Part shown: positions 25,202-27,888 of the stretch, in pieces | How positions within the stretch are numbered: position 1 is the first letter of the stretch | Layout: every line of letters begins with the position of its first letter | NCBI GenBank assembly: GCA_913055565.1 | Contig: CAJXKP010000011.1 | Span: 1-64,000, forward strand | DNA from: an uncultured Ectothiorhodospiraceae bacterium | GTDB taxonomy: Bacteria; Pseudomonadota; Gammaproteobacteria; Nitrococcales; Nitrococcaceae | Length of the DNA stretch: 64,000 bases | Direction of reading: 5' to 3' | Program-made: the position numbers and the translations under genes | The notes under the pieces: model-generated | Database searches by the model: none | Told to the model about the DNA's origin: nothing | The model's input: the letters and a program-made list of their open reading frames with translations, nothing else

Positions 25202-26307
25202 ACGGCAACCTCTTGGCTGGCCGACTGTCGCTCGCGGCGCTTGGTGCGGTCGTCGACCCGCCCCACGAGCTGCCCGCAGGCACCATCGATATCGTCACCC
25301 CGGGTCTTACGGGTCGTCGTAATGTAGCCCGCTCGCTGCAGGATCTGCGAGAAACGTTCGATCCGCTCGCGCGACGAGCACTCGTACGGCGCGCCGGGGA
25401 AGGGATTGAAGGGGATTAGGTTGATTTTCGACGGGATGTCATCCAGCAGGGCCGCCAGCTCCCGCGCGTGAGCGTCGCTGTCATTGACGCCATCCAGCAT
25501 GACGTATTCCCAAGTGATCTTGTGGTGCGGCGTCTGCGAGACGTAGTGACGGCACGCGGCCAGTAACTCGGCGAGCGGATGCCGTTGATTCAGCGGCACG
25601 ATCTCATCGCGCAGGGCGTCATTCGGGGCATGCAACGACACCGCCAGGCTGATATCGCTGACCTCGGCCATGCGGTACATATTGGGCACGAGCCCAGAGG
25701 TAGAGAGCGTGACCCGGCGCCGTGACAGCCCATAGGCATAACGATCCACCATCAAACGCGTCGCCGGCATCACCGCCTTGAAGTTGGCTAAGGGCTCCCC
25801 CATGCCCATCATGACCACGTTAGTCACGCGACGGCCCCGGCCTTCATCCGCCAGGGCCTGGGCGGCGAAGCGTACCTGGCCGATGATCTCCGCGGTCGTA
25901 AGATTGCGATTAAAGCCCTGCTGCGCCGTGGAGCAGAACTTGCAGTCCAGCGCGCAGCCGACCTGCGAGGACACGCACAGGGTCCCGCGACTCGCCTCGG
26001 GGATAAACACCAGCTCGATGGCGTTACCGCCATCGACCGCGAGTAGCCATTTGCGTGTGCCGTCGACCGATTCCTGATCGAAAACGGCCTGGGGCATGCG
26101 GATCTCCGCGGCATCGCCGAGCTTCTGGCGAAGCGGCTTGCTGAGATCGGTCATGGCCTCGAAATCCGAGACGCAGCGCTGGTGGATCCACTGCATGACC
26201 TGCTTGGCGCGGAACGGCTTCTCACCAATATCGGCGAAAAAGCCCTGCATGGCCTCGAAGTCCAGATCCAGCAGATTGACCGGCGCTGTGTGCTCGTTAC
26301 TCGTCAT
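25198..26307 (-). CDS. rlmN: Dual-specificity 23S rRNA/tRNA adenine-C2 methyltransferase RlmN
   Basis: Radical SAM enzyme that methylates C2 of A2503 in 23S rRNA and A37 in a subset of tRNAs. It is 369 residues. The [4Fe-4S] cluster cysteines are in CALDCKFC (Cys118, Cys122, Cys125). The two mechanistic cysteines correspond to Cys111 and Cys344 (GACGQL). The MGMGEPL motif for SAM binding and the VSLHAPND block are present. Its ATG overlaps the ndk stop by one base (TAATG). Confidence 0.97.
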
Positions 26308-26738
26308 TATGCCTCGCGGGCGAAGATCTCGTCGTCACCGAAGAAGAAGTCGATCTCGTTGCAGGCCGTCTCCGTAGAGTCCGAGCCGTGGACGGCATTG
26401 GCATCGATGGTCTCGGCGAGATCGTGGCGGATGGTACCGGCCGCAGCCTCCTGCGGATTGGTCTCGCCCATGATCTCGCGATTCTTGGCGATGGCGTTCT
26501 CGCCCTCGAGCACCTGAACCAGGATGGGCCCGGAGGTCATGAACCCGACGAGATTATCGAAAAAGGAACGCTCGCGATGGACGGCGTAGAACTTCTCCGC
26601 CTGAGCGCGCGAGAGATGGACCATCTTGGCCGCGATGATCCGCAGCCCCGCTTTCTCGAAACGGCTGTAGATCTCGCCGATGGCATTGCGAGCGACGGCA
26701 TCGGGCTTAACGATCGACAGCGTGCGTTCGATGGCCAT
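26307..26738 (-). CDS. ndk: Nucleoside diphosphate kinase
   Basis: Transfers the gamma-phosphate from ATP to NDPs through a phospho-histidine. It is 143 residues, the standard length, with [10 protein letters not shown] near the N-terminus (6-15) and the active-site NAVHGSDS with His117. It is the first gene of the ndk-rlmN-pilF-rodZ-hisS-yfgM-bamB run. Its ATG has an AGGAG ribosome site. The long upstream non-coding region (26739-27194) is described separately. Confidence 0.98.
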
Positions 26739-27194
26739 GGACTTCTCCTAAGTTGACGTTTTGAGCCGTTACGGCGGCCGCCCCCGCGAGGCGACCGCAA
26801 CCAGGCAGAATAGTCTAACTCCGCGACAGAGGACCTACAATCAAGGGCAGCGCCTAGCAGCAATTCTAATTAAGTGATCGCCAGAAGAGCGAGTGGTCGC
26901 TTTACCCCCTGCCGAGGGACGCCACAAGCCTTCCCCGGAGGCTCGACTGCGGCCTTCCCCGGCCGCAGACGCCCTCGGCAGGGGGTAAAGCGACCGCCTC
27001 GAAGGTGGACATGAGAATTGCTGGGCGCTTAGGCAAACAGTGACCAGCCCCCGCGGACCCCGCCGGGGCCGCCTTGCGCGTGGCCAGGCGGCGTCCCAAA
27101 GCTTGACCCCATCGCAAGTACAGCACGACGCGCCGCGCCTTGCGCGCGCTAGCGCTCAACGGCCAGAGGCTCGCGCGGATGGTCCAGCGTTCCC
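26739..27194. other. 456-base intergenic region between iscA and ndk, rich in secondary structure
   Basis: It contains a large inverted-repeat element (26895-26995) and a 7-bp hairpin GCCGCCT/AGGCGGC (27068-27074 with 27086-27092). An AT-richer stretch (about 26850-26885) could hold the ndk promoter on the minus strand. Open frames here have no ribosome site and overlap the palindrome, so I call no gene. Confidence 0.5.
26895..26995. repeat. 101-bp element: perfect 24-bp inverted arms enclosing two matching hairpins
   Basis: Positions 26895-26918 are exactly complementary to 26972-26995 (24 of 24; begins GGTCGCTTTACC). The 53-base interior folds into two further hairpins: a 7-bp one around 26928-26944 (AGCCTTC/GGAGGCT, one G-T) and a perfect 8-bp one at 26947-26968 (CTGCGGCC/GGCCGCAG). 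Both inner hairpins carry the same CCTTCCCCGG apex. The whole would form a three-way junction as RNA or single-stranded DNA. No target duplication is visible at the ends and no T-run follows, so it is neither an obvious MITE nor a standard terminator. Confidence 0.85.
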
Positions 27195-27521
27195 CTAACC
27201 GACGGAGAAGCTCTCGCCGCAACCGCAGTCGCCCGTGGCGTTGGGATTGCGAAACTTGAATTCGTCGTTGATCCCCTCCCGAACGAAATCCACCTCCAGG
27301 CCGTCCAGGAACGGCATGCTCTTGCGGTCGATGACGACCTTCGCACCGTGCGCCTCAAACACGGAGTCGTCCTCGCTGACCTCGTCGGCGTAATCCACCG
27401 TGTACATAAACCCGGAGCACCCCGACGTCCGCACCCCGAGGCGCAAACCCTCACTACCCTCGCGACCGGTTATCGACCGGCGGATGTGCTCCGCGGCACG
27501 TTCTGTCAATTCAATGCTCAT
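27195..27521 (-). CDS. iscA: A-type iron-sulfur carrier protein IscA
   Basis: Carries Fe-S clusters or iron from the scaffold to target proteins. It is 108 residues with the three conserved cysteines Cys35 (TSGCSGF), Cys99 and Cys101 (GDCGCGESF). Sequence around LRLGVRTSGCSG and the FNEGFKFTNPN-like INDEFKFRNPN block is closer to IscA than to ErpA or SufA. ATG 27521 has a CGGAGGT site lying inside the end of the upstream IscU-like gene; the two overlap by 11 bases. Confidence 0.93.
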   Translation of the reverse strand: MSIELTERAAEHIRRSITGREGSEGLRLGVRTSGCSGFMYTVDYADEVSEDDSVFEAHGAKVVIDRKSMPFLDGLEVDFVREGINDEFKFRNPNATGDCGCGESFSVG

Positions 27522-27888
27522 AGCTACCTCCGATTGCGTCGCATGAAAGCGCCAGCCGCAGCGCGTCCTCGATACGGAGGGCATCACCACCGGCCTCTGC
27601 CGGCAGCCCCAAGGCATCGAGGGCGTCCCGGGCGTTGATACGGCAGGCCGCCTGGCGCGCGTGGCCGATAATACGGGCGGCCAACCAGTCCGCGATTGCC
27701 AGCGCCTCTAAGGCCCCATAGACCTCGAAGCGCGCGTCCGCGATGACCTCATCGTTTATCTGGACCCAGGCTACCACCCAAAGCCCATCACTGAGACCAC
27801 CAATCTCGGCGACACGATAACCGCTGGCATCGACCGGCCCCCCAACATGGCTGAGACGCGACCACCAACCGCCCTCACGATCGGCCAT
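27511..27888 (-). CDS. IscU/NifU-N-like protein lacking all three cluster cysteines
   Basis: A 125-residue protein that aligns with IscU through DARFEVYG, AAR(I)IGHARQAACRINARDALDALGLP and RIEDALRLAL, in the same order and spacing. The IscU ligands Cys37, Cys63 and Cys106 (E. coli) correspond to Asp34, Ala59 and Asp102, so it cannot hold a cluster in the usual way. The N-terminal helix of IscU (YSEKVIDHY) is also not recognisable. Start ATG 27888 is one base after the desulfurase stop (TGAGATG), so translation is coupled. It lies between a cysteine desulfurase and IscA. It may be a regulatory or structural partner of the desulfurase, a paralogue that lost its function, or a scaffold with other ligands. 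Confidence 0.8.
   Translation of the reverse strand: MADREGGWWSRLSHVGGPVDASGYRVAEIGGLSDGLWVVAWVQINDEVIADARFEVYGALEALAIADWLAARIIGHARQAACRINARDALDALGLPAEAGGDALRIEDALRLALSCDAIGGSYEH

Follow-up and report, generated by a model that had tools for sequence, protein, structure and literature searches.

The iscA-ndk intergenic region

In the window, that is, the whole 64,000-nucleotide stretch of DNA analysed here, ndk and an iscA-like gene are separated by 456 bp, as measured between the two ORFs (Table 1); the true start of iscA probably lies inside its ORF. In the 12 relatives for which the gap between the two adjacent genes was listed, it spans 22-236 bp and contains no comparable element. The empty site was seen in distant relatives only, which do not reveal the exact pre-insertion sequence. 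A putative ndk promoter was recognised, and a TTGCC..TAGACT-like pair of boxes is also found upstream of ndk in several relatives. The insertion lies ~17 bp upstream of this promoter, on the iscA side, and leaves it intact.

The initial annotation described the element in this gap as 101 bp long, with perfect 24-bp inverted arms, two inner hairpins sharing the same apex, and no U-tract. All three structural claims were confirmed: the arms, with 53 nt between them, are complementary at 24 of 24 positions and form the strongest non-overlapping inverted repeat of the window, both inner hairpins (26929-26938 and 26953-26962) have the apex CCTTCCCCGG, and a U-tract after the stem is absent on both strands, as inspected in both flanks. 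The extent, on the other hand, had been underestimated, as the complete unit is 166 bp long. A 121-nt stretch folds with a predicted energy of -52.1 kcal/mol as DNA (z -9.6) and -89.1 kcal/mol as RNA (z -9.35), and in both cases none of 200 shuffled sequences folded as well. In most sister copies the apex reads CTTCCCTGG, the window copy having a T to C change in both loops. On the window copy, Rfam returned chance-level matches only (mraW, with 26 bits versus the 50 required), and the Ysr224 model scored below its threshold. An intrinsic terminator was rejected, as the stem is not followed by a U-tract.

Table 1. Features of the iscA-ndk region of the window
Feature	Position	Strand	Basis
ndk, flanking gene	26307..26738	-	ORF, 143 aa; matched in 24/24 genomes
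iscA-like flanking gene	27195..27617	-	ORF; tblastn match beside ndk in 24/24 loci
Probable ndk promoter	26812..26840	-	-35 TTGTAG (26835-26840), 17 nt, -10 TAGACT (26812-26817); inferred
Target duplication, left copy AGCGCCTAG	26849..26857		7/9 versus right copy; width 9 over all copies
Whole MITE, terminal repeat to terminal repeat	26858..27023		166 bp; alignment stop and duplications
Left terminal inverted repeat CAGCAATTCTAATTAAG	26858..26874	+	1 mismatch to CAGCAATTCTNATNNTG
Core palindrome, left arm	26895..26918		24/24 versus right arm; arms co-vary over copies
Two-hairpin head, YPAL/RU-2-related	26918..26972	- (ANGGA strand)	Matches in other genera; RU-2 sequence; Ysr224 on homologous Yersinia copy
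Core palindrome, right arm	26972..26995		24/24 versus left arm
Right terminal inverted repeat CAGCAATTCTCATGTCC	27007..27023	-	2 mismatches to pattern CAGCAATTCTNATNNTG
Target duplication, right copy GGCGCTTAG	27024..27032		9-bp duplication analysis

A repeat family with defined ends and a fixed target duplication

The same genome (2.72 Mb; a draft assembly of 84 contigs, 94% complete) contains about 50 copies of the element. A DNA search of this genome gave 59 candidates, and all of the 40 scored ones carry the core. The core pattern was found at 43 places versus none in the reversed control, and the terminal-repeat pattern at 97 places versus three. As the element is multicopy and its core is widely conserved (see below), it is not the single-copy, unconserved sequence that would have spoken against the initial annotation, and it represents a repeat family.

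When these copies were aligned together with their flanks, the similarity ended at CAGCAATTCT on both sides. The terminal inverted repeats take the form CAGCAATTCT(A/C)AT..TG, and CAGCAATTCT...AGAATTGCTG ends are present in 49 scored copies, a set that includes one spurious alternative pairing of ends. Over these copies, the mean identity between the two flanks is 0.80 at a width of 9 bp, whereas the remaining widths between 4 and 13 give 0.22-0.29, which sets the target duplication at exactly 9 bp. Ten of the scored pairs of ends have perfect 9-bp duplications, and that of the window copy is imperfect, with seven of the nine positions identical. The unit is non-coding, with no gene inside, and most copies are 164-168 bp long.

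Terminal inverted repeats combined with a duplication of fixed length are the mark of DDE transposition. Since the element has both, we conclude that it is almost certainly a 166-bp MITE with a YPAL/RU-2-related middle and with outer ends that are recognised in trans by an inferred DDE-type transposase; the suggestion of a MITE-like palindromic mobile unit was thus borne out by the copy number, the terminal repeats and the duplications. The putative transposase would act in trans on the CAGCAATTCT(A/C)AT..TG ends, and its staggered cut of 9 bp would give rise to the target duplication. The palindrome, a long stem topped by two short hairpins that have the same apical loop, appears to have been captured as the middle of the MITE. 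On transcription together with iscA, the element would adopt a stem of very high stability, and this stem could shield or insulate the upstream message, judging from the fold and the YPAL reports.

The ends are not tied to this palindrome. MITEs of 143 bp in genome G162, 141 bp in G238 and 300 bp in G003 share CAGCAATTCT(A/C)ATT(A/T)TG ends and 9-bp duplications around other, unrelated interiors, which makes the ends the hallmark of a transposon family that does not depend on the palindrome. The G162 interior (L391-L394) is a TCATTCCCGC...GCGGGAATCC palindrome that resembles CGTC-tagged REP pairs, while that of G238 is non-palindromic. An autonomous element sharing these ends and encoding a transposase was not found. 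In genome G085 (L139, 1501-1599), the same terminal repeat is followed by an apparent ORF start (MNAAIKSKPEI...) and then by the end of the contig; this may possibly be the 5' end of an autonomous IS.

Among 47 normalised copies, the arms of the core pair with each other at 0.920, compared with a mean of 0.885 and a maximum of 0.897 for shuffled partners, whereas the terminal repeats pair no better than shuffled ones (0.838 versus 0.847). Relative to the ends, the core lies in the normal orientation in 39 copies, is inverted in nine (L018, L022, L029, L036, L039, L040, L102, L103 and L113) and is unclear in one, and the inverted cores are spread through the copy tree as though randomly placed. 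Strand switching from one arm to the other while the DNA is replicated could account for both the pairing of the arms and the inverted cores. One copy of 67 bp (L115) lacks the palindrome. The window copy differs from the consensus by 10%, compared with 7% for the median copy, and is an old, diverging copy.

The two-hairpin head in other Gammaproteobacteria

When the 166-nt consensus was used as the query, other genera matched at its middle only, which we refer to as the head, with the consensus GGACACGCCGTRAATAC-RTCCNT-GTASGCTCGAC-[hairpin 2]-GACGGTCC. Of the 369 genomes of the class that were sampled, 29, belonging to 26 genera, contain a strict head pattern, with no match in the reversed control. 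The hosts include Marinobacter, Rheinheimera, Stenotrophomonas, Halopseudomonas, Microbulbifer, Methylotuvimicrobium, Yersinia similis and Pectobacterium. Methylotuvimicrobium buryatense 5G (G300, L317-L388) has 549 matches to the head pattern with at most one mismatch, and none in the reversed control; the exact matches in this 5-Mb genome show a modest regional strand bias, as examined together with GC skew for a bias towards one replication strand. No head was found in the plasmid and phage records searched, and viral contigs contain almost none (three among 2.9 million).

In other genera the head usually sits on a long stem, and 152 of 240 copies have strong arms, 28 bp long at the median. 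In G037 and Aquisalimonas lutea (G035), the outer arms agree at 97% within a copy versus 45-46% between copies. Heads in G037 (L118, L120, L122, L123) often form close pairs on opposite strands, at most a few hundred bp apart. As judged from simple longest-ORF gene calls, heads flanked by convergent genes outnumber those flanked by divergent genes (47 versus 21, p 0.002), in agreement with the location reported for REPs, at the 3' ends of genes.

The 168-nt RU-2/YPAL element of Yersinia contains the two-hairpin head (PMC2759123), and among the papers searched the core motifs were found in the RU-2 paper only, besides one unrelated chance match. The window unit and YPAL/RU-2 have in common this head (GCGTCCGCGCCAAGGATGGCGCGGCTCGAGCCTACATGGATGTATTTACGGCGTC in RU-2), an internal inverted repeat, a length of about 167-168 bp, an intergenic location and tens of copies. 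According to the summary in PMC2229807, however, YPAL has no terminal inverted repeats, its inverted repeat being internal, and its target duplications vary from 3 to 26 bp; the window unit is bounded by terminal repeats, its duplication is constant at 9 bp, and its arms and ends are different. As it departs from YPAL in these two features, the terminal repeats and the duplication size, only its core can be called YPAL-like. Insertion at dyad symmetries or terminators is a further feature of YPAL/RU-2. Rfam family RF02770, 'Ysr224', corresponds to the TCC-strand left part of RU-2/YPAL, and its model matches Yersinia and Pectobacterium copies; the loci are L225 (7888-7994) and L238 (638-745).

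The GTAG- and CGTC-tagged REPs (PMC3733652) are likewise short intergenic hairpins, some dimers of which were reported inside larger palindromes, and hairpin 2 is also preceded by CGTC on the - strand. Unlike REPs, the head consists of two dissimilar hairpins, its junction and its ANGGA/TCC loops being conserved, and it has neither an AT-starting stem nor GTAG. A RAYT gene is absent from the genome that contains the window.

Alternative readings of the element

Two other readings were weighed against the MITE. The palindromic shape, the intergenic location and the high copy number would also suit a REP/REPIN-like or other single-strand element with hairpins recognised by a HUH (Y1) transposase, as the initial annotation had allowed; the strand-asymmetric stems in other genera (see below) fit recognition of one DNA strand too, and Y1_Tnp occurs in nine head-bearing genomes of the order. 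To our knowledge, however, HUH transposition leaves no target duplication, and 9-bp duplications are found here; furthermore, our genome (G000) has no match to PF01797, and Y1_Tnp is likewise missing from G003, G032 and G048, though all of these genomes carry heads. The 9-bp duplications and the missing Y1_Tnp led us to reject a HUH/REP origin of the window element, which we regard as scarcely credible.

A regulatory RNA, a terminator or an attenuator that the host has retained and that is peculiar to iscA-ndk would account for a very stable fold between two co-directional genes. Against it stand the about 50 copies at unrelated loci, the relatives with no element at iscA-ndk, the missing U-tract, and a divergence of the window copy above the median, and we consider this reading very improbable. 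A more general role is possible for the core as an RNA stability element or structured RNA, as it is related to YPAL, which is reportedly co-transcribed with upstream genes (PMC2229807).

A possible CsrA/RsmA-binding module and its significance

On the ANGGA strand, hairpin 1 of the head reads UAC-ANGGAY-GUA and the tip of hairpin 2 reads C-A(N)GGAN-G, and the reported RsmE/CsrA consensus is A/U-CANGGANG-U/A. The loop of hairpin 2 lay outside the search pattern; nevertheless, A(N)GGA is found in 218 of 240 second-hairpin loops despite 118 versions of the stem, against a background of 3.4% of random 10-mers from the same loci. A distance of 22-24 nt separates the two GGA motifs, and CANGGANG is present in both loops of 173 of the 240 heads of the family. 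Deviations in the stems are more often G.U on the ANGGA strand (77 versus 26, p 5e-7; 57 versus 17 when counted by element), and this excess suggests that the ANGGA strand folds single-stranded, as RNA or DNA.

These loops, their spacing and the G.U excess raise the possibility, which we put forward with considerable reserve, that the head serves in RNA as a two-site CsrA/RsmA-binding module, a reading compatible with that of the MITE. With two ANGGA loops about 23 nt apart, transcripts containing the head would bind a CsrA dimer, and would then act as regulatory sites or sponges. Several observations run counter to it. Heads lying in tandem gene contexts occur about equally on either strand (42 versus 40), an antisense excess in a smaller first sample having failed to hold; Ysr224 models the opposite strand; the copies of our genome show no wobble asymmetry, and CANGGANG persists in both loops of only 26 of 47; in the window copy, both loops have lost their A and read GGGGAA. 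In addition, the module leaves the conserved junction bases unexplained, and recognition of single-stranded DNA would produce the same asymmetry. CsrA-binding RNAs of the CsrB/RsmZ type share the ANGGA loops closed by C-G; unlike them, the head is not a dedicated sRNA gene and occurs in many copies on mobile units.

In kind, the window element is ordinary, although it represents a clear new MITE family; the novelty lies in a superfamily and in a MITE that has apparently acquired the superfamily head. It is conceivable, but on balance doubtful, that YPAL belongs, as one branch, to a superfamily of mobile palindromes found throughout the Gammaproteobacteria, in which the sole constant would be a two-site CsrA/RsmA-binding head on a freely varying, self-matched stem, spreading CsrA sites or sponges, and that a DDE-type MITE captured this head here. 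Less ordinary is where the window element leads: the head, previously known only as a Yersinia repeat, is spread over many Gammaproteobacterial families, reaches hundreds of copies in one genome, and has strictly conserved loops, although its stems vary between copies and still pair almost without mismatch. This turns both stem matching and CsrA binding into testable questions: the matching may reflect selection on the folded strand or correction by template switching, and CsrA, a global regulator, comes into question as the binder of a mobile repeat. The Rfam 'sRNA' family Ysr224 has been reported among the most prevalent bacterial sRNAs (PMC9029176); as it is the left part of the repeated, mobile YPAL element, its prevalence partly counts repeat copies.
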